Below, piece by piece: positions 1-53,360 of a stretch of DNA of 64,000 nucleotides. A program made the position numbers and the translations under genes. The notes under the pieces were generated by a model that did not search any database, was not told the DNA's origin, and was given only the letters and a program-made list of their open reading frames with translations. How positions within the stretch are numbered: position 1 is the stretch's first letter; the number at the start of each line of letters is the position of its first letter. Source of the stretch: Pocillopora verrucosa (Eukaryota > Cnidaria > Anthozoa > Scleractinia > Pocilloporidae); contig NC_089313.1 of the NCBI RefSeq assembly GCF_036669915.1, forward strand, positions 15,739,575 to 15,803,574, read 5' to 3'.

Positions 1-3000
1 GTTAGTTCTTTGAAGTTCTGTCCGAAAGCTGACTTCCTTATCGCATCATCTTGGGCAAATGATGTGAGTGTTTGAAATCTGCATTTGTTTGCTTTCTACG
101 ATCCTTTCTACCAGCTATACTTTGATCATTTCACTCCTAAAATTGATATTTTCATCGTCCTTATCTGTTAATTTGAAAAATAAACCTCACTTATCTAAGG
201 AAGGCAAGCTTCAGAATACAATTATCAGTTGGTCAATTTAGGGCAGACATGTACATGTGTACATGTACGATAAAGGATAATCAGCTTTCCTTCAGATTAA
301 GACACCTCCAAAGTTTGCCAAAAAAAAAGCTATCAATAATATTATTTTAAAAAAGCAAAAAACTTAAGAGGATTTATTTTGTTAGAAATAAATAAAATTC
401 CAAGCTCTTTAGATTGCATTAATGACCTGAAATAACTGATGGCATGTATCTACAAAACTAGGGGTAATCTTCACCTCATTGCTCATGTACAAAAGAGAAA
501 CTTAATGAATCTTTTGGCTTGGTTTCATCGTAAAGAATTGATGATAACTCATCATTATAGAGAAAGACAAATCAAAAAACAATTTTATTCCCCTTGAGAA
601 ATCAAACCTCAGATTTTCAGTTTCCTTGCACCAAGGTTTGTTTTCTTAATGGGACTGATTTTTTTACTTTATTCAACATCGTGTGACTAGTGGAATGATA
701 TCCCTCTTTATTCCACTACAGAGTTCATGATTTGCCATCTTTCTCATTCCCAGAGTGCAAATTATTTTTTTGTCTCTGTTAGATTCGATGTTGGGAAGTC
801 AGAGAAGATGGTCAGATTGTTCCAAAGGCACAGCAAAATCATACAGGTCCAATCCTGGATTGCTGCTGGCATGATGTAAGTTATTTGCTTTGCACTACTA
901 TCTTTACTACTATATATTTTATGTTTTGCAGTATATACTGATGTTGGCTTCTGTAAGATTTCTTTGCCCTGTTTTTGCTGTTTATTTCTAGGATGGCACA
1001 AAAGTGTTTACAGCATCCACTGACAAACAGTGTAAGATGTGGGATTTGAATTCCAATCAAGCCATCCAAGTGGCTCAGGTAATACAAATGCACTTTCCAC
1101 ATCTCAGCCATATCACATTTGACCCATTAACTCCCATTGGTCATCAAGATAGAATTTCTCCTTACAATATTAATACACTACCAAGCAGAAAGGTGATGAA
1201 AATAAGAAAAAATATAAATTGGGGGTGTATTTGGTGAACCAATACCAAATTCTCTAAATTTGCATGTTAACCCTTAAACTTCCAAAATCTGATTGTCAAT
1301 TCTACCCTCTGGCTACTACACATTTCCTTGTAAATTGATTATGAGAATTAGGTGTTCAATCAAGGTAATAAATTTTGCCTGATGAGTTTGAGTATTCTCA
1401 TTACCTGTTTGCTGTATAATACATGGGTACTATGTGGAGAAGTTACATGATGATCACTTCTGGGAGTTAAAGGATTAAGAATTGTATGGCAGACATCAAA
1501 GAGAAGTACTGATGCTCAAGAAAATCTATGTTTTTATCAAAGAACAGAGAATACATTATTCTTTTTGCCCTCAGTAATTCACATCAAGCTAAGAATTCTT
1601 TGGAATTCAGAAGTTTGTTTAGTGACAGAGGCAAAAAGGGCTTACAAACTGAACCCTTTCAGTACCAAGATCTCAAGCATAACTCACAATCTTCCACGCT
1701 TTTTAATGTTAGCTCCAACATTCCCCAATTGATAAGTTTCTTTACTTTCATCACCTGTCTGGTTATTAGTGTATTTATAATGTAGGGTGTAATTACTTTT
1801 TGATCACTCCTAGAAGTGAAAGGGTTCACTATAAAAGCATGTCAAAAGTGTCCCCACATCATAAAGATGAGTAATCAAACAATTATGAAAGTTGTAGTTA
1901 ATTTCTTTCATGTTCTTTTCCTGTTGTTCAGCATGACAAACCAGTCAAAACATGTCACTGGGTACAGGCACCAAACTACAGCTGTCTTATGACTGGCAGT
2001 TGGGACAATACACTGAAGTTTTGGGACACTAGATCAAATAATCCCATGATGGTTATAACACTTCCAGAGAGGGTCTACTGTGCAGATGTGGTGTACCCAA
2101 TGGCCATTATTGGAACTGCACAGAGAGGAATAATTTGTTATCAGCTGGAGAATCAGCCATCAGAATACAAGAGGATTGATTCACCACTGAAGTACCAGGT
2201 TTGTAACTTAAATGATCTATCAGTTTAGAAAAGGTGTAAATATTATAACATATTGGTATTAGCCGGGAATGTAACAGACAATGAGGGCATCAGATTCAGT
2301 TTTAAACAACAGCCCTTCCTCCTCTTTCTATTCAACTTTGTACACCAAAGAAACAAGTCTTCGAGATTGGAAAGAGGGATTGTATTGCTGCCATAACAAC
2401 TTCAACACAGACAAAGTGTGTAATTCTGCAAACCCCCCTTAATGGGGTTCGTGCATATGTATACGCACTGTTACCTAGTAACGCGTGATATATTTTTCAC
2501 ATCACGTTCCACTAGGAGTCTCAGATGGAAGCTGTGTAGTAAAACCTGTTTCGATGCGGTCGGAGAATCTAGGCTAGATCAAGAAATTCAAAGTGAACTA
2601 CGTCTGGTGTTTTGACTGTAATTTGGAAAGCTTTGTTTGCTAAGTGGATAAAGATAAAGCAGATTAAGTTAAGAAAATTGTTTTGATCTTTGAAATTCAT
2701 AAAGATTTTGTCCATGAAAGATTATGCAAATTCACACCTGAAATTGAAGCAAACCGTAATTTGAGTTTTTTGTTTTCATAAGTTTGGGTGATATTTAAAA
2801 GTTAAAGTTGGTCTTCCTAAAGCGAAGACATTGTTCACTGAAGGGAAAGGTTTCTTCACTTCCTTTTCCTGTTCAGGCAATGTTCCATCCCTGATCTCTC
2901 ATGGATCACAGACATGGCAATTCCACTCTGCATTTATTCTGCAGTGTAGTTTACTTCATCTTGCCTTGAACTGAGTACTAGAGCTTCTGAGTGATCCAGA

Positions 3001-4918
3001 TGTCATGAGGTCAACTCCTTCTCTTTGTTCTTTGCATTTGACAAAGAGCTCACATCTCTCGTTTGTGTGATGATGATTAACTAATATAGTTAAACAGCTT
3101 TGTTTGTCTTTTGCTACTTTCAAAAATGGTGATATTTCATTTTGATTGGGACAATGCTTTTTTATCATGATATGTCATTTTGATTGGGGTGATGCTTTTT
3201 TCTCATAGAACCGCTGTGTGAGTATTTTCCGAGATCCAAAGAAAAACAACCAGCCTGTTGGCTTTGCTCTTGGCTCAGTTGAAGGAAGAGTTGCAATCCA
3301 GTTCATTCAACCACAAAACCCGTAAGTCCAAGTCAATTCCTGTTTGCTTGACATTTTATAATCAAAATGGAACTCTATGGCTCAAACAATAGTTTTTTTT
3401 TTTACTTGTAGGAAAGACAACTTTACATTCAAGTGTCACAGATCTAACGGAACAGGAAATGCAAACTATCAAGACATTTATGCTGTAAGTTTATAATTAT
3501 GAATACCTAAGTAAGCTTTCTGACAAGAGGAAGGTATGTGCACCTTTTGATTGAATTGTCCAGTGGCAAAATTCAATTATTTGGATGGATGTGACGCAGG
3601 AAAGCTGCAGCCTTGTAACATTTTCTCACTGTTGCACTCATAACCTTGTCGTTGATTCATTTTTTTTTAATAAAATTAATGTCTTTGCTGAGGGTGTGAG
3701 GTAATTTTTCAAACAATTTGTCCAAGACAGTGGGTTAAATTAAGGATTGATAACAGCAAACTTAAACAATCTCAGTACATTATCTGAAATAAAATAGTTT
3801 TGAAGTTTAAAATTTGTTTCACAACATAGCCATGTCAAATTTGAATTGATAATAACCTGATCTAAGGGTAGAAAGGTTTTCCTCACTTTTCAAGAGAAAT
3901 GTTCCAGAAAGTCTCTGTTAACTTAAATAGACTCAGATTTCCTGCATCACTTAAAAGCTTTTTCAGTATTGGATATTATTGTATGCAAAGGAAAGCAATC
4001 CCCAATTCTTTTATTTTTCAGGTAAATAATATTGCTTTTCACCCTGTGCATTGCTGTCTGTTGGCCACTGTAGGATCAGATGGAAAGTTTAGTTTCTGGG
4101 ACAAGGATGCTCGTACAAAGCTTAAGGTATGCACTCATCTATACTTTGGGAGACTGGATGCAAAACCTGTCATTTGCTTTTATACTCCATATGGAATAGT
4201 TTCCTTTTGTCGATCATTGAAATTTTATCACATGCAACAAGATTGAATATGAAACATTAAGCAAATCTTTTTCAACAAGCAAGAACTGGAGATGAGATGG
4301 CAGTTAACAAGGTGAACAGCACCAATTCAACCAAAACTATCTAATGCCAATATCCATATTCTCCATACTCTGCTTTATACTCCTCATTTAGTGCTGATGA
4401 GGAGAATTTATTGAAAAATCACAACTTCTTAGGTTGATGGTCATTTCCTTTATTCTTCTTATCTCAATGAACAATTCAGAAGCAAAGGAGAATTTAGATG
4501 CTGGTCACTCATGGGGTTTAAAAGGATATCCAGTTGTTGGGTTAATATTTGAAAATCTGTAACAGAAAGACTCCCAGCTTCACTCACTTTAGAGTGTACA
4601 AATAGTTATACTGAAGGTTTTCTTTCTTCTTAAATACTTTTGTTTTCTTTATCAGACTTCTGAGCAGCTGACCATGCCCATAACGGCCTGTACTTTCAAT
4701 TCAAAAGGAAACATATTTGCTTACAGCTCTAGCTATGACTGGTCAAAGGTAATTATAGAATTATATACTTCCTTAGTTCTTCATGAATGGATTGGAAATC
4801 GTGAGACTGAACTGCAATATTTGTTTCTTTTAAGGGACACGAGTACTTCAACCCCCAACTCAAGCCCAAGATCTTTCTCAGAAATTGCACAGATGAGCTG
4901 AAACCCAGGAAAAAATAA
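1..4918 (+). CDS. RAE1: mRNA export factor RAE1 (GLE2), 3' part
   Basis: Nine exons are visible: 1-63, 783-875, 992-1078, 1932-2198, 3209-3321, 3412-3484, 4022-4126, 4656-4748 and 4835-4918 (TAA at 4916). All have GT-AG borders and the reading frame stays open, giving 325 residues. The family is about 368 residues, so roughly 45 N-terminal residues lie left of the window. The translation follows RAE1 closely: SWAND then [106 protein letters not shown] and a basic C-terminus. These are blades of a seven-bladed WD40 propeller. In other animals RAE1 binds the GLEBS motif of NUP98 at the nuclear pore and acts in mRNA export, and it also acts in spindle assembly. Introns at 1079-1931 and 4127-4655 carry MITE-like repeats. 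Confidence 0.96.
1119..1516 (+). mobile_element. MITE-like family C copy interrupted by a family A copy
   Basis: In the RAE1 intron, 1119-1266 plus 1479-1516 align with the intact family C copy at 36775-36980 (shared words include AGAATTTCTCCTTACAAT and CTAAATTC). The C copy is split at a TTAA by a family A element at 1267-1478. See the finding on nested insertion. Confidence 0.8.
1267..1478 (+). mobile_element. MITE-like family A, TTAA-flanked
   Basis: TTAA at 1267-1270 and at 1475-1478 flank termini CCCTTAAACTTCC and GGGAGTTAAAGGA, which are imperfect inverted repeats. The interior (TCTGATTGTCAATTCTACCCTCT... GAGTATTCTCATTACCTGTTTGCTG...) recurs at 16501-16686, 26652-26864, 26878-27063 and 46188-46399. 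It has no coding capacity. TTAA target duplication and CCC ends are typical of piggyBac-related non-autonomous elements. Confidence 0.85.
1651..1829 (-). mobile_element. MITE-like family C, decayed, reverse orientation
   Basis: The stretch CAATTGATAAGTTTCTTTACTTTCATCACCTGTCTGGTTATTAGTG... ending AGTGAAAGGGTT is the reverse of the family C body at 36775-36980. The copy is diverged and shortened. Confidence 0.55.
4335..4533 (+). mobile_element. MITE-like family B copy in the last long RAE1 intron
   Basis: It contains the family B words CATATTCTCCATACT, GATGAGGAGAATTT, GGTCATTTCCTTTATTCT and TTTAGATGCTGGTCACTC. The termini have decayed and no TTAA remains. Confidence 0.65.
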
Positions 4919-7973: not shown

Positions 7974-8630
7974 CTAGTACGACACAGATTTGCTTCTTGT
8001 GGTTCTTGTGCCATTAGATAGTAGAGGTAAACTGGTCTTTCTTCGTGGCAGGCTAGCTGTCATTAACTCGTTTCGTTGTCGCACACCTGAGAAATTCCGA
8101 CTGTACATTGGCACTCTTGTGCCATTTGGAGGCGTTTGTAACGGAGATGAAAATCCTGTTTTGTTCGGGCTGGTTCCTTTTTGGGTCGAATCGCTACTAA
8201 CAGATAACAAGTGACCAGATGAGCCGGTAAAACTGCTACGCGATGGAAGTAAGTCCATCGAAGGCATTGTCACGGTCTTGTGAAGTGCTCTACGATTTCT
8301 CGACAAGGGTGCACTTTCCAGCCTTACGTTTTTGGTTACAAATGGTTGAAGGGTCAAATCTTCTTTTGAATCAGATGCAAGAACGCTTTTACTGAGTGGC
8401 GTGCGACCGGAATAGTTTTGAGCAGGTGGAGCACTTGGAACTCTTCGCAACGAAGCTTTATCTCGTATGCCCTGAATTTGTTCCTGTCTCCGTGCGAACG
8501 CTTGAGTTGCCTTCTCCATTTCACGCATGCGAGTCGTTCTATCTCTTTCCAGCTGCTGGAGTTCGAGACTAAGTCTCGTTTGATGCACAGAGTTTCTTTT
8601 TAAAGCCGAATTTTCGTCCGCAGAGGACAT
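7974..8630 (-). CDS. unrecognised basic protein of 218 residues, single exon
   Basis: An uninterrupted frame runs from ATG at 8630 to a stop at 7974. Residues 15-65 are predicted helical, with alternating Glu/Arg/Gln (LELQQLERDRTTRMREM, FARRQEQIQGIRDKA), like a short coiled coil. The rest is low-complexity, rich in Ser, Arg, Thr and Pro (RRVPSAPP, LPRRKTSLPLLS, TTRSKSVSY at the C-terminus), and is probably disordered. The length and codon use look like a real intronless gene, with no repeat content. I do not recognise the family. It is divergent from the EF-hand/coiled-coil gene at 9795, about 1.16 kb away. No function is assigned. Confidence 0.7.
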   Translation of the reverse strand: MSSADENSALKRNSVHQTRLSLELQQLERDRTTRMREMEKATQAFARRQEQIQGIRDKASLRRVPSAPPAQNYSGRTPLSKSVLASDSKEDLTLQPFVTKNVRLESAPLSRNRRALHKTVTMPSMDLLPSRSSFTGSSGHLLSVSSDSTQKGTSPNKTGFSSPLQTPPNGTRVPMYSRNFSGVRQRNELMTASLPRRKTSLPLLSNGTRTTRSKSVSY

Positions 8631-9794
8631 TTTGTCTCGAGATTCGTAGCGCTGTCAAAGTCAACTGTGTTGTCTGCCTTATACGATTCTCATGCTTGTT
8701 ATTTTATGACACGTATCTGACCTTTTCACCACAGAGGCAGTGACCCCGAACTGTTTATGCTTTCTATTGATTAGCAGCATCATTCATCTCATGCTATTGG
8801 TAGACATCCAGAAAGTGTGTTTCTTTTTCATCATAATTGTGTTTTATGAACTAAACAGGAATTAAAGGCTTTTCTTTAAAAGGTTTGATAGTTATGCAAT
8901 GAGCGCCATTAATACAGAACGGCTTAGAAATTTTTTTTTTCGGTTTTTGTTTTTGTGTTTGAGATTAAAGAGAATAATTACAGGCTAAAAAACGCATTCT
9001 TGTCAAAGAGATTTTAATTCATCGAACAAGAACTTAGGCTGGTAGTTTTTGTAAGTGCGAAGCTTTGGAGTTTACAGAATATAAATACAATATCACTTTC
9101 AAAGATCGAGGTTTTCTCACGTGTCTTTGGGGTAATCTTATTGACTTAACTCCATTTACCATTTACTCAAAAATCAAGGTTACGTGTCTATCATTTTTCG
9201 GTGATCTCAAAGTCGTCACTGAAACCTACTTCAAGACTCTTGAGAAAGTATCCGCACTTGGATATCCGCTCACAGTTAATACCTTTTTATGGCATTTCCA
9301 TAATACTTAATTTTTTTGAACGCGATCGGTTCTTTCAGCCGATATAAACTGATTTAACAGCCCCAACCATTGTTCCATATGTTAATTTGTACGTCAACAC
9401 TTGGAAATCACGCAAGAATTAAAGGTTTTGCTTGAATAAACAAAGCGCAACACGTGAAGGTTTTCTATTCTCGGACTCATAAACTGCTTAAAACGTCAGC
9501 TGAAGCTCACTTCTGATATTCAACCTTAACATCACGAACACTTTTATGTGTGTTTTACAAGTGTTTCTACTTATTTTCCACTTAGCTCATTTCCTTTCCA
9601 AATATTATATATTCAATACAAAAAAATAATGACAAACTGCCTCCTCTTCTATTCTCTTGTTGGATCAATGAACATGTAATGTTCTTTGAAAATTGTCCAC
9701 TGTTCTTCTTATTAGATTCAGTCGTCCAGTCCAGAGTTGAATACGTATTAATGACGTCATGGTGTCCAGGACTCCGGTGTAAACAATAATCAAC
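8631..9794. other. divergent intergenic interval
   Basis: It lies between the start codons of two divergent genes, so it should hold both promoters. No CpG-rich core, TATA box or repeat family stands out. A short open frame at 9065-9310 looks incidental. Confidence 0.5.
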
Positions 9795-9802
9795 ATGGCG
9801 GC
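9791..9802 (+). promoter_or_regulatory. TISU element at the start codon of the EF-hand gene
   Basis: CAACATGGCGGC spans the ATG at 9795 and matches the TISU consensus SAASATGGCGGC at every position. In mammals TISU acts both as a YY1-bound transcription element and as an initiator for mRNAs with very short 5' leaders. Use in this organism is inferred. The match also supports 9795 as the true start. Confidence 0.7.
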
Positions 9803-12800
9803 TTCAAGCGACTGGATTAGTAAAGATGAAGCTCTTACGGACACATTTAACCGCTTTAATACAGATTTCTCGGGTGAACTAACAGCAGAACAACTGCAGG
9901 AGCTACACTCTGACATACGAGATGGAGGGATAAGTTTACCGCAGGTAGAAGCGTCAATAGAGGCCGTTTGTGCGGCCGAAACTTGCGACAGGCAGGAACT
10001 TTATGATGTTCTCAACGAAATGGACCGGAGGTATTTTCTCGTTCGCGACTTGCAATGGGAGTTTTCAATGCTGGACAGGGAAAATAAAGGTGCCATTAGT
10101 GAAAGAGAAGCAAGATTCCTGTTCCAGGCTGTTCACGACGATTTTTTCTCGCATCGCCGGTGGCTCAAATTCCTTCGTAGTCGCGCTGCTCCCGGTTCTG
10201 GAATTAGCTTTGCAGAGATTGAAGTTCCACTTTGCGATATGCCAACCATGGATTGGCTGGACGAAGAAAGGCAGGATGAGGATAATGAAAAGGAGGAAGA
10301 GTTGAGACGTAAACGGGAGAAAGAGAGAGCCGATGAAGAGGCGAGGAAGGCCGCCGAGAACAAGGCGAAATTTGAGAAAGAAGCAGCGAAGAGAAAAGAA
10401 GAAGCAGCAAGGAGAAAAGCCGACGCAGAAGCTGCTAAGAAGAAAGCCGAACAAGAAGAACTGGAGAGGAAGGCGAAAGAAGAGGAGGAGGAAAGAAAGC
10501 GCCGGAAGTATGAGGAAGATGCGAAGAGGCTCAGCGAGGAAGAAGCAAAACAAAGAGAAGAAGAGGAAAGACTGAGGCAGGAAGAAGCTAAGAGACTAGA
10601 GGAAGAAGAGAGGAAGAGAAGGGAGAAGGAAGAAGCTGATCAGAAGTGGAAGAAAGAGGAACTGCGAAAACAGCAAGAGCTGGAACGAGAAAAGGAAGAA
10701 AGAGGTAAGAAAGTATTTACTTAAAATTGTTTTTACCAAAATTTGTAAGGGATGTTGTCTAAGATTACAAGCCTGAGGTAGAGCCTGTGGTTACATCCTG
10801 GGCGGGGAGGGGGTGTTATTCCATGATCCATGGCTGCTGATTTAGAATGGTAATTGAATTGAGTGGAGTGCAATTTGGTCTGACGAATTGAATTGAATTG
10901 AAAGAGCACGCAGCACAAGTTTGATTCGAAATTGCAAAACCAAACTTGCACAACATGTAGTTCAATTGCCACTTTAGTACATCAATGCTGAAACTGCAAA
11001 ATTCAGACAGTAAAATACAGGGTATTTTAGTCTGTAAAAATATTTTATTGATCCAGTGCTGATCTGGTTTGTAAAAAGTTGCAAAAATTGTCTTTCATTT
11101 TCCACTAATTTGATTGGTTACATTAAACAAGCTTTGAGATCTGATTGGCTATTATGTTTTAGTGAAGGTTTCTCTTTGGCTGAGAAAAAGATGGAATTTA
11201 GGGGAAAAAAAATGGTGATATGTGAATAAATCACACCAATAAGAGCCAATCAGATTGCAATGGATAACTTGCTCTCTAGCAGATGAGTGAAACAAAATGA
11301 GCTGTGCTATCCATCGGATAGCAATTTATCTAGTGGATAGTGTTTTACACCCTTCAAGCAACTGGAATCAAACTTTTTACTGCCAGTCTTCAGTTAATTC
11401 TTTAAAAAAAGTGACATGTGACCAAATTAATGTACTTGAAACCTCCCTTTGGGCTCTGGGTTGTAGAGGTTGGTGCTTTTAAAGATGTTCTGGAAAAATT
11501 GGAAGGCTAAAAAATCTTCTTAGGCTATCTTATCTTAAGAAGGGATATCCATTGTGCCTGTAAGTTCCTAAGAAGATTTTCATTTGACCTCCTTGGTGGG
11601 GGATGGTAGTTACAGCATAAGATAACAATACCCATAGTTGTAAGTGACACAGTCTGCCAATGCAATCGAAGTGTAATTATTTGAAAGTGTGTCTGATGTA
11701 CCATTCTTCTCTGGAAATGGATACTAGAAAGTGTATTTTTCCATTACATTTCATGATCATGTAGAAAGAGAGGAGCTGGAACGAAAGCAGAGAGAGGAGG
11801 CGATGGAGGCTGAAGAATTAGCTGAAGAAGCAGAAGAAGCAGAAAGAGTAGCAGCAGAACAAGCTCGTCTAGCAGCTGAAGCTGCAAAGAAAGCAACAGA
11901 TGAGGCAGCAAAGAAGGCTGCTGAAGAAGCACAAAAGAAAGCTCTTGCTGAAGCCATGGCAAACAAGGAAAAGAGATTGAGGGCCAACTTAAAGGGGGCA
12001 GTGAAATCTAGAAAGGAAGAAAAATTGGAAGGATCAATCAAGGAAGCCAAGACTGCTAAAATGCCTGGTAAGTTCTGATTCTTATTATTGGTCTGTATTA
12101 CATAAAGAAAATTTTTCTGATGCAAATAGTTATTTGGGAGGAAGTTGGCTAAAACAGGTGTCTTTCATATATAGCAGACCTTATTGCTCTTCATTTATAT
12201 TCATGTTAATTATCTTTTCTGAGCACATGGACATGTTATAAGACAATTATAGAATTTTCACTATAAAGCAAGGCCAAAGCCTTTGTAACAACCAAGATCT
12301 AATGGGGTTACACTTTGTATGTGGCAGGTTTGAAGAATGACATTGATACTGCAGAAAACACTCTTAAGGATGTCCAAGCAGGGGAAGCCTTAAAAAGTGC
12401 AATTAGACGTCGACATCTGGGTGATTTGGAGAAGTCAATGGCCCACATTCGAAAAAATGCCTGGGAGAAAGGCTGGGGCATTGAACTCAAAGAAGGAGAA
12501 AAACTGGCAAGCAGATTAAGACGTCTTGAGAAACTGAAAGCAGAAATCATGGAACTGAAACAAAGTGTAATATCAGAGATCAGGAGTTATGGGAATCCGC
12601 CTCCTGCAGTCCACAAGGTATGTACTTATACGGGATTTATACATTTATTTAATATTCTATGTAGATTATAGCAGAGCTCACAGAGCGTAGCCCCATGATT
12701 ATACAAAATAGTAGTAACCCATCAAGCTGAAAAAATTTGGATGTAAGACCATACAAGGTGCTACTTTTAACATGAGTGGTCAACTGTACCGCGGGCACAC

Positions 12801-15049
12801 CAACGCCATGGCTTTGTTCAGTAGTCCAGTGGTCAGTGCACTGGGCTCCGAGTCAGACCACCCAGGTTCTAGTCCTGGCTGGAGCAATGCGTTGTGCCCT
12901 TGAGACGTGCAGGAAAAAAAAATGCGAGCTCTGCTTTTAGGCTTGGCTAAATCTATATATTAGATATATTTTTTATTAGTTCCTTTTTTTACAGCTCATT
13001 AAAAACATTTCATAATAAGGTGATCAGAAATGCACTCTAGAGAAACATGCAATGAAAAGTAAAGATTATAATTGATTATAATTGACAAGAATCAATCTTG
13101 ATTAAAACAGGATTTAAAGCTTACCAGAATGTATTGTCATTGAGAGTTGAAAATATCCCTCCTTGCAAACTGTCCAAAGCTTCTAGTTTCCCCCCTCCTC
13201 CTACCACACTCTCTCTTGTTAGGGAGGGGAAAGTGTATATGCTACTATTCTAAATTTAAGGTTATTTCAATTTGTGCAGCACAATATTAAAATAGAAAAG
13301 TCTTGATGCAGCTATCTTGAATCTTAAGTCTTTATTACTCCAACTTTCATCTTCTCTTGTCTTATCAAGTCTAGATTTATCAATATTCCTTGATACTTGT
13401 TTCTTTACAGGTTATGATTGCCACATATCTGCTGCTCAACTATCCTGAGAAGGAGTTGCTTAACTGGAAGAACATGCAAGCACTGCTTGGCAAGACAGGC
13501 AAAGAGGGTTTGAAGCGGCAGGTCACATCACTAGATCCATTACATGTGGACATGAGCAAGGCTGACTATGCTTTTGAAAAATATCTGAAGGAGACTGATT
13601 TGGAGACAATCAGAGATACAAGTGCTGGGGCAGCCACATTCTATGTTTGGGTGAGTCTAAATGGTATACAAGGGGCGGGGTAGGAGGGAAGATTCCACAG
13701 AGTGTGCTATAGCCCCAAGTGAATAAGATGAATCCAGTATCATGTTGGTGCAGACTTAGTAGTAAGTGTTAGCCTGCAGTTAGCTTGTTTTAATTGGAGG
13801 AATGAGATACAGTTACAGGCTTGCAATCATTTGTTAGACTACCATGTCTTCAGGGTTTAAGTGGATGGAGAGGGTTAGGGGCATAGCATTCTCAACAAAA
13901 AATATACCTGTGCTGCAGACTATGTTGGTTTTCATCCTTTTCCCTAGGGTTCTTTCATGGTTTTTTATTTTTCTCCTAAGAAAGCAATACTTTGAGCTCA
14001 TTCAGATTATTTCAGGAACTTGTAAATAAAGAGTGTCTCAGTGTGTGCATCAACCTTAAATCCTAATTACTTTATATTTTTTATGTATTCATTTTTATGT
14101 ATACTTAACGATTATCTACCAACTCTTTCTTGCTATCAAATCAGCCCACACTTTTTAAAATAGTTTTGTCCCTTAGCAACTGCCCATGAAATTAATAGGT
14201 AAACAGTAAAGATTCACCTCAACAAATAGATTCCAAGTTTCTGTGCATCTGTTCAGTAGTAGATTGCAGATGACGTCAAAACATGTTCAAAAAGTGGCAC
14301 ACAAAGGGCAGCCAAGGGTGTCACTGATGTTGTCATTGCATTTGGATATCTTCTGTGATCTATTACTGTACAGACCCATGGAAACATGGAATCTGTTTGT
14401 TTTATATAATAAAAAAATGTTATTAATCCTTTACACCCTAACATCAGCATGCATATTCTCCATACTGTTCTCTATATGTTTCCTAAGGTGCTGACAAGGA
14501 GAATTTGGTTTGCAATGTAGAGCTTCTTTAGTGGGTGATCAGTTCATTTATTCTCATGACCTTAATGTTTGATTTAGGGGTGATATTGTAAGGATGGGTC
14601 TGTCCTCTAATAGATCATAGGTAACAACTAATCAAAATGTGTGGTTATTCAATGTATTATGTAATGCTTGATTGACAATGATGCTTTGGTTTTTGTAGTC
14701 AACCAACATGATAGAGGAAGTCCATTCTGTTGCTGAGCAGAAGGAGAAACTGTTGGAAGAAGAAAAGAAAAGAAAACAAGAAGAAGCTGAAGAAGCAAGG
14801 AAGGTGGCAGAGAGAAAGAAAGCTCGTGAAGCTGCAAAGAAAGGTGCACCACTGACTAAAAGAACGTCACAGATACCTGGAAAAAAGACTTCAGTGACTG
14901 ATCAGGGAGGCAGAACATCAAGGGATGAAACAAGAGGAAGAAGTAATTCTAGAGGCAGAGAAGGGAGTAAGGAGAATTTGAGCAAGTCCCCTGCCAGACC
15001 AGGTGTGGCACGAAGGGCCTCTAGCAAGTCTCCTGCTGCTCGCAGCTAA
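9795..15049 (+). CDS. EF-hand, long coiled-coil protein with a dynein-stalk-like segment
   Basis: Exons are 9795-10704, 11765-12067, 12328-12617, 13411-13650 and 14699-15049 (TAA at 15047); phases join without a break to give about 697 residues. Residues 15-34 form a weak EF loop (NTDFSGELTAEQ, Glu at position 12 replaced by Gln). Residues 94-105 form a better one (DRENKGAISERE). Residues 155-490 are an almost continuous Glu/Lys/Arg/Ala coiled coil. From about 490, GNPPPAVHKVMIATYLLL, NWKNMQALLGK, a Leu/Asp segment, YLKETDLETIRDTSAGAA and VW follow, then a second coiled coil. That order resembles coiled coil 1, the microtubule-binding domain and coiled coil 2 of dynein heavy chain. The tail (620-697) is basic and Ser/Arg/Gly-rich. 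There are no AAA modules. A ciliary or microtubule role is inferred. Confidence 0.85.
12811..12922 (+). repeat. tRNA-derived SINE-like unit
   Basis: It lies in intron 3 of the EF-hand gene. An A-box-like GTGGTCAGTGCACTGG is followed by a B-box-like GGTTCTAGTCC (one mismatch to GGTTCRANNCY), spaced as in a tRNA, and by a short A-run at about 12913. It lacks a cloverleaf good enough to be a tRNA gene. Confidence 0.55.
14423..14605 (+). mobile_element. MITE-like family B copy, 3' end decayed
   Basis: TTAATCCTTTACACCC at 14423 leads into CAGCATGCATATTCTCCATACTG, GTGCTGACAAGGAGAATTTGG and GGGGTGATATTGTAAGGA. It lies in intron 4 of the EF-hand gene. Confidence 0.75.
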
Positions 15050-15052
15050 TTT

Positions 15053-15058
15053 AATAAA
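15053..15058 (+). terminator. polyadenylation signal of the EF-hand gene
   Basis: AATAAA lies 3 nt after the stop codon at 15047-15049. A GT-rich stretch (GTACTTGTTTGAGT) follows within 25 nt. Confidence 0.5.
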
Positions 15059-19308: not shown

Positions 19309-32519
<13,211 letters not shown>

Positions 32520-34539: not shown

Positions 34540-50480
<15,941 letters not shown>

Positions 50481-52118: not shown

Positions 52119-52991
52119 CTACAAATGTCCGAGAGAGTTCTCTAGCCACTGACCTTGAATAAGCTCAGAAACCTCAGGTGGGGTATAAAGATCGGGAAAA
52201 TCAAATTGGCCACCATTTGCCCCGTTCAGATCAAGCAAAGGGGAAACAGGCAAGCCATTGAAGTTCACATTACCAAATTCTAAGCTTGGCCACGAGTTGG
52301 GAATCTGTTGGTTGTGATTTACACTCGTAGGCACTTGCTGATCTTGTTTGAACGCTTGCTCGAAGTCGTCATACAACGAAAGCTGATCAATAGGGTCCTC
52401 TGGTGTGGTGCCGATCGCATCGGGAACATTCGGTGGTGGGGTGATCGGCGAAACGAAATCGCGTCGTTGCTTCTTGAACGGAGGCTCGCCGAGGGAACTG
52501 CCGTGTTTCTTGGAGGAACTCAAGCCAGGAAATCCGTGCGCGCCGGGAAGGGCTTCGCGCTTGGTGCCCGCCGCTTCTGCGACGTTCTTCCTTGAGTGCC
52601 CTTCCGCGGAATTCGAGTTTTTACTATCTGGTGCACCGTTGCTATTCTTCTTACTGGGTTGCTTTTTCTTACGCGGACGGTATTTGTAATCGGGATAAGC
52701 TTGCATGTGTCTTATGCGAAGACGCTCCGATTCCTCTACAAACGGTCTCTTTTCACCCTCCGAGAGCAGCTTCCAGCGTTTTCCCAGACGTTTGCTGATC
52801 TCGGCGTTATGCATGTCAGGGTGCTCCTCGGCCATTTTTCTACGCTCGATCTGGCTCCAAACCATAAACGCGTTCATGGGGCGCTTGACATGTTGAAGAG
52901 ATTTCTTTGGTTCTTCCTCGGGTTCGTCCACAGTGGGCACTTGTGCTGGCGGGCTTGGCGAGTTGAGCTCGCTTCCATGGAAGACCATCAT
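52119..52991 (-). CDS. SoxC: SoxC-group HMG-box transcription factor
   Basis: An intronless frame runs from ATG at 52991 to a stop at 52119, 290 residues. The HMG box spans about residues 34-112: [56 protein letters not shown]. The IERRK and [16 protein letters not shown] words and the lack of introns place it in SoxC (Sox4/11/12 relatives) rather than SoxB or SoxE. The last 30 residues ([18 protein letters not shown]) match the SoxC C-terminal transactivation motif. The linker is rich in Ser, Pro and Lys. The open frame extends 72 codons upstream to 53207, but that part is not Sox-like, so the MM start at 52991/52988 is preferred. SoxC factors bind the minor groove of ACAAT-type sites and act in neuronal and progenitor programmes in animals. 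Confidence 0.95.
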
Positions 52992-53360
52992 CACTTCAAT
53001 TACTCGTGCGCGAAGTAAAAAAACAAAAAAGTCTCTATTATACGAACAGTGGATGGAATTCAGTGGTTCCAGCCAGTCAGGGAGTGCGGAACTCGATTCG
53101 TTGTGTCCACAGGTGTGGAGTAGTCGTAACGCGGTCAGTAGGAGTGCAAGCTCTTTTCCGCTCGACACGTTATCAGCGAGTGAAGTAGCATAAACTGATC
53201 GTGGCAATTTCTATTTTTAATTTACATCCAACTTGAATTTGCGTTGGTTTCTCTGTGACGCCGTGACACGTCACCTCACGCTAACACAAAGGAACCAATG
53301 ATGGGAAGCAAAACCCGCTCAATGCTCCGCCCCGTGTTCGCCGCACGGCCTTCTAATTGG
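52992..53360 (-). promoter_or_regulatory. SoxC 5' leader and probable promoter
   Basis: ATTGG at 53356-53360 gives CCAAT on the sense strand about 365 bp before the ATG. The interval is GC-richer than its surroundings. An in-frame open extension at 52992-53207 is read here as 5' UTR. Confidence 0.45.

Follow-up and report, generated by a model that had tools for sequence, protein, structure and literature searches.

Gene structure of the locus

The window analyzed here is a stretch of 64,000 nucleotides from Pocillopora verrucosa (contig NC_089313.1, positions 15,739,575 to 15,803,574 of the forward strand), and all positions below are counted from its first nucleotide. A gene on its + strand was predicted to encode a protein of 697 amino acids (aa), in which a region resembling the stalk and microtubule-binding domain of dynein heavy chains was found outside a dynein motor. 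The single open frame ran from the ATG at 9795 to the stop codon at 15047–15049 through five exons. The four introns were all of the GT-AG type and joined the exons with the frame kept. The sequence AATAAA was present at 15053, directly past the stop codon.

The first part of exon 1 (9795–10265) encoded residues 1–157, an EF-hand-like region with non-canonical loops according to Pfam, a PDB match and the loop pattern. The second part (10266–10704) encoded residues 158–303, a charged rod rich in E, K and R, which continued to residue 325 in exon 2 as judged by the count of i,i+4 pairs. In exon 2 (11765–12067, residues 304–404), the spliced model and its composition placed the end of this rod, followed by an Ala-rich stretch. 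Exon 3 comprised three parts. Residues 405–455 (12328–12479) may form a helical hairpin, although the periodicity of this region was weak and 250 of 5000 shuffles were equally strong. Residues 456–493 (12480–12593) formed CC1, a putative ascending stalk helix that was assigned by its periodicity and lay within the match to the Pfam MT family. The last eight codons (12594–12617, residues 494–501, NPPPAVHK) began a core resembling the microtubule-binding domain in the spliced model and the dynein alignment. The rest of the core was encoded by exon 4 (13411–13650, residues 502–581, VMIATY...YVW), which fell within the regions matched by Pfam MT, dynein profiles and hhalign. Exon 5 started with CC2 (14699–14851, residues 582–632), a putative descending stalk helix with periodicity of its own, in which the Pfam MT match reached residue 611. 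It ended with a basic, Ser/Arg-rich tail, recognized by its net charge, and the stop codon (14852–15049, residues 633–697). All peptides quoted in the preliminary description of this DNA were located in the protein: GNPPPAVHK/VM, which intron 3 splits, LLL, NWKNMQALLGK, ETIRDTSAGAA and VW, followed by a charged helix.

The dynein-like domain

The preliminary description had claimed that the stalk and microtubule-binding domain of dynein occur here without the motor, and had named a profile search against PF12777 as a check. That search was positive. With the 225-aa segment of residues 403–627 as the query, Pfam MT (PF12777, dynein stalk; gathering cutoff 24 bits) matched residues 441–611 with E = 1.6e-5 and 24.5 bits, and hhalign gave a probability of 98% for residues 467–587. 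Nine control sequences were submitted to Pfam: the reversed segment, four versions with a shuffled core, the flanks without the core, and three shorter true segments. No Pfam MT match was listed at E ≤ 10 for any of the four versions in which residues 491–590 were shuffled, for the reversed segment, or for the flanking helices joined without the core.

Two profiles built from dyneins gave the same answer. The six-dynein profile scored the segment at 41.9 bits and the full protein at 39.2 bits, whereas none of 5000 block shuffles exceeded 6.5 bits. The nine-dynein profile (DYNC1H1, 6kjo, DNAH17, DNAH9, 7kzm_B, 9y6s_5c, DNAH6, 8glv_Fm, and DNAH2) scored them at 45.2 and 42.6 bits, and the best of 5000 block shuffles reached 8.4 bits. 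When the latter profile was run against the 2199 six-frame open reading frames (ORFs) of at least 20 aa in the window, only two were matched at E ≤ 1, and both were consecutive exons of this gene. They started at 12303 and 13375 and scored 14.9 and 15.9 bits, respectively; the second was the exon 4 frame.

A phmmer search of the PDB with residues 403–602 returned 20 sequences at E ≤ 10, of which 11 had E-values of 5.7e-5 to 0.0059 and nine had E-values of 0.35 to 1.0. The 11 matches at E < 0.01 could all be identified, from their names or lengths, as dynein heavy chains or constructs of dynein. Among the 20, dynein heavy chains or dynein constructs numbered 19, and the remaining one was PLZ2.3 (E = 0.47). 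The entries 9fqr_Hl, 8glv_Cn, and 6rzb_C carried other names in the table and were counted as dyneins in part from their length or match position. When the PDB was searched with an alignment of seven rows, the best 60 of 98 matches were dyneins by name or length. This search was uninformative on the window protein, because six of the seven rows were dyneins themselves.

Several observations weighed against a dynein-type stalk tip in this protein. The Pfam MT score barely exceeded the cutoff, and the three shorter true segments scored 20.4, 23.1, and 20.0 bits (E from 4.5e-5 to 3.8e-4). With the full-length protein as the query (E ≤ 0.01), Pfam MT was missing from the list, presumably owing to the biased composition of this protein; nor did it appear with the bare core of 105 aa (E ≤ 10) or with the frame of exon 3 or exon 4 on its own (E ≤ 1). 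Exon 4 and residues 1–160 were both modelled without an alignment, and the models were too poor to rely on. Exon 4 alone was modelled with a mean predicted local distance difference test (pLDDT) score of 51.1 and five helices of at least four residues, and the only Foldseek match to this low-confidence model was unrelated (E = 9.1). The missing Pfam listings for the full-length protein, the bare core and the single exon frames are what one would expect if the similarity reflected coiled-coil composition only, without homology. However, the helices alone gave no Pfam MT match, shuffling of the core abolished the match in four of four cases, and 45.2 bits stood against at most 8.4 bits in the block shuffles. 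Moreover, the exon 4 frame, which lies largely outside the coiled coils, was matched alone by the nine-dynein profile, and the six-dynein profile and hhalign contradicted a mere effect of composition as well. Such an effect is therefore very improbable, and chance coiled-coil similarity was ruled out by the shuffles, the reversal and the helices-only control. Because the Pfam controls, the dynein profiles and hhalign agreed, it is not in serious doubt, and can be considered close to certain from these comparisons, that the domain is homologous to the microtubule-binding domain of dynein.

Seventeen alignment columns were regarded as strongly conserved, i.e., identical, with at most one exception, in the 8–9 dyneins with a residue there. 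Ten of them were kept in the window protein (E488, P495, P496, V499, L509, W520, Y559, S572, W581, and K596), including the PP pair, both Trp residues and Ser572. The other seven were changed (E477, Q483, L535, T563, G574, A593, and Q595), and these changes add to the observations that speak against the dynein-type tip. The Lys before the PP pair, present in 9/9 dyneins compared, was replaced by Gln483 (codon at 12561–12563 in exon 3). The V-x-P motif of dynein CC2 was lost, with Ala593 and Gln595 in place of the Val and Pro that each occur in 8/8 dyneins, and the net charge of the core was 0. In addition, Leu535 replaced a Phe of 9/9 dyneins, and the identity to the nine dyneins was 16–28%. 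In a ten-row tree, the window protein had a branch of 4.96 and joined no supported group among the dynein classes. The position of Gln483 corresponds to human DYNC1H1 K3301, which would be mouse K3299 if mouse numbering is two lower. Mouse K3299 adjoins beta-tubulin D427 (PMC6629372). The loss of this Lys may weaken microtubule binding. With the Lys lost and the core neutral, microtubule binding is in doubt and may itself be lost. The same source describes a 13-residue flap in a loop of DNAH7 (PMC6629372). The loop before Leu535 was at most three residues longer than in human DYNC1H1, and a DNAH7-like flap of 13 residues is therefore absent.

These changes, namely Gln for a Lys of 9/9 dyneins, the missing Phe and V-x-P motif, the neutral core and the low identity, would also be explained if the tip descended from a dynein stalk, had lost its microtubule binding, and now served as a protein–protein module on a long cytoskeletal rod. 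We consider such a degenerate tip unlikely. Ten of the 17 strongly conserved columns were retained, another Lys (K482) sits one residue from Gln483, and the basic tail could provide electrostatic contact.

The absence of an AAA ring, also claimed in the preliminary description, held in every Pfam scan. Scans of the five exon frames (E ≤ 1), of residues 1–163 and 403–627 (E ≤ 10) and of the spliced protein (E ≤ 0.01) listed neither an AAA family nor a motor family. A fragment of a dynein gene was ruled out, since the gene had its own start and stop codons and no AAA family, and the nearest upstream ORF of at least 200 aa was on the opposite strand. The protein shares with dynein heavy chains the order CC1 – PP..V – W – S.GAA (S.AA-like) – W – CC2. 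It differs from them in having an EF-hand-like region and a charged rod in the place of the motor.

Rod, N-terminal region and basic tail

Residues 158–325 contained 68 i,i+4 E-K/R pairs, compared with 39.2 ± 4.7 in 2000 shuffles. Helical hydrophobic periodicity was absent in residues 158–300, where 831 of 5000 shuffles were equally strong. The pair excess and the missing periodicity fit a single charged helix. The excess of i,i+4 E-K/R pairs and the scarcity of hydrophobic residues are shared with single alpha-helix proteins, but here the rod is joined to a dynein-like tip. This combination was not apparent in a partial literature search of titles and abstract openings.

The 3.5–3.6 periodicity of the two putative stalk helices was modest and was matched by 48 of 5000 shuffles for CC1 and 47 of 5000 for CC2. 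CC2 was poor in hydrophobic residues, with 7 in 51, which also tells against the dynein-type tip. An antiparallel stalk is uncertain for this reason.

At the N-terminus, EF-hands had been described, and this description held in part. When residues 1–163 were submitted to Pfam, EF-hand_6 scored 26.0 bits (cutoff 25) and EF-hand_7 scored 27.5 bits (cutoff 30). EF-hand_6 and EF-hand_7 scored 24.9 and 18.9 bits with the exon 1 frame and 21.1 and 21.5 bits with the full-length protein, all under their cutoffs. The best PDB match of the region was 3l19, a calcium/calmodulin dependent protein kinase EF region, with E = 9.3e-6 over residues 11–125. Modelled without an alignment, residues 1–160 had a mean pLDDT of 46.9, and the best of 61 Foldseek matches had E = 1.7. 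The EF loops NTDFSGELTAEQ and DRENKGAISERE deviated from the canonical pattern, and no canonical 12-residue EF loop was detected in the protein by a PROSITE-type pattern. Thus, a similarity to EF-hand proteins is recognizable in residues 11–125, but the loops miss the canonical calcium-binding pattern. The suggestion that the protein is calcium-responsive gained little from these results, and a strong calcium response appears unlikely from the EF loops.

The 65-residue tail had a net charge of +12 and contained 18% Ser. Its motif SQIP (residues 638–641, 14867–14878), is a candidate EB-binding site revealed by the motif search, and the protein has no other [ST]x[IL]P site. S/T-x-I/L-P motifs bind EB proteins (PMC4365484). 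In having SQIP within a basic tail with 18% Ser, the protein resembles SxIP plus-end tracking proteins. The latter are defined by EB binding, whereas SQIP in the window protein is a candidate from its sequence. EB-dependent plus-end recruitment via SQIP is possible. It could even be the primary activity: the SxIP motif and the basic tail would then recruit the protein via EB proteins, with the dynein-like tip secondary. The sole [ST]x[IL]P site lies in a Ser/Arg-rich tail of charge +12 and is of the type reported to bind EB proteins, but an SxIP motif arose by chance in 1216 of 100,000 tail shuffles (1.2%). This explanation, on the doubtful side in our estimate, is compatible with a dynein-type foot.

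Surroundings and proposed role

A palindromic CRE-like (cAMP response element-like) site, TGACGTCA, was located at 9752–9759, about 36 bases ahead of the start codon, and three such sites were present window-wide. Two X-box patterns, a strict one and a loose one, were searched for. The strict pattern had three matches in the window, and none of them was within 8655–9900. The loose pattern had 2 of its 111 window matches in this interval, approximately as expected from its length. A role in the axoneme had been suggested, and X-box-like sites, at about background density in the promoter, lent it no support.

Upstream, a 226-aa ORF at 7974–8654 (−), without a Pfam match at E ≤ 0.01, perhaps belongs to a divergent gene. 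WD40-like exons were found at 1902–4243 (+), with a WD40 score under the cutoff of 27 in 1902–2225 (E = 2.8e-5, 24.9 bits); they resemble the mRNA export factor Rae1. Downstream, the window contained an exon of the FAM91 C-terminal domain at 30673–31125 (+; E = 7.3e-17), a SIK3-type UBA exon at 38735–39085 (−; 29.8 bits, cutoff 27), and a protein kinase exon at 49842–50141 (−; E = 2.9e-24). The last two are on the same strand and perhaps belong to one kinase gene. An HMG-box ORF, presumably of the SOX type, was located at 52119–53210 (−; HMG_box E = 1.9e-27). With its interrupted genes and these domains, the window looks like genomic DNA of an animal. Within intron 3, a tRNA-like stretch at 12790–12910 with a B-box-like GGTTCTAGTCCTGGC, spotted by eye, is perhaps the head of a short interspersed nuclear element. 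ARAGORN listed no tRNA for it, and a single copy of its 29-base core (12854–12882) was present in the window when up to three mismatches were allowed.

Among viral contigs, patterns from exon 4, exon 3 and the EF region matched 11, 20 and 14 stretches, respectively, none of them confirmed by tblastn. Among prokaryote genome contigs, the exon 4 pattern matched 148 stretches, again with none confirmed by tblastn. Titles and abstract openings of the literature, of which coverage was partial, named neither a dynein tip outside dynein nor the combination of EF-hand and stalk. The dynein tip is not known to occur other than as part of the dynein motor.

A eukaryotic protein that already bears a name may nevertheless be its orthologue, with a stalk-like domain that simply escaped annotation. 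The full-length Pfam scan missed the domain, so that it could go unlabelled elsewhere. No such protein was found by name among the PDB matches at E ≤ 10 for residues 403–602 or 1–163, which is weak evidence against it. We regard such an orthologue as conceivable, at somewhat less than even odds; it is a question of naming and is compatible with the other explanations.

As read from the predicted protein, the architecture is an EF-hand-like region, a charged rod, an Ala-rich stretch, CC1, the dynein-like domain, CC2 and a basic tail with SxIP. The single-helix-like character of the rod, the SxIP motif and the replacement of a Lys shared by all nine dyneins had not featured in the preliminary description. 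Here, we propose that this is a motor-less protein in which a dynein-type stalk tip acts as a passive foot gripping the microtubule, and we assign this proposal a probability of about 0.6. CC1 and CC2 would pair in antiparallel orientation as a short stalk that offers the tip domain to the microtubule, so that the dynein-like tip on its short stalk would sit at the end of the rod. At the opposite end of the rod, the EF-hand region would bind a partner, which would thereby be tethered or cross-linked to microtubules. The basic tail might add a contact with the lattice or an EB-dependent contact with plus ends. In the dynein motor, the register of the stalk sets the grip of the tip. Without an AAA ring, ATP cannot shift this register, and the affinity would therefore be fixed or set by a partner. 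A dynein-like tip carried without any part of the motor points to a protein that tethers or cross-links microtubules passively.

More tentatively, the protein could represent an overlooked animal family of motor-less dynein-stalk proteins, in which a dynein foot on an EF-hand-capped charged rod forms a fixed-register microtubule tether. We would not yet favor this wider view. Such a family would have escaped notice because the domain goes unreported when full-length proteins are scanned with profiles. If the proposal is true, a natural tip without a ring would show how this domain behaves when it is not coupled to ATP, and models of affinity control could be compared with a tip of fixed register. 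The known microtubule tethers would also gain one that annotation of full-length proteins can overlook.

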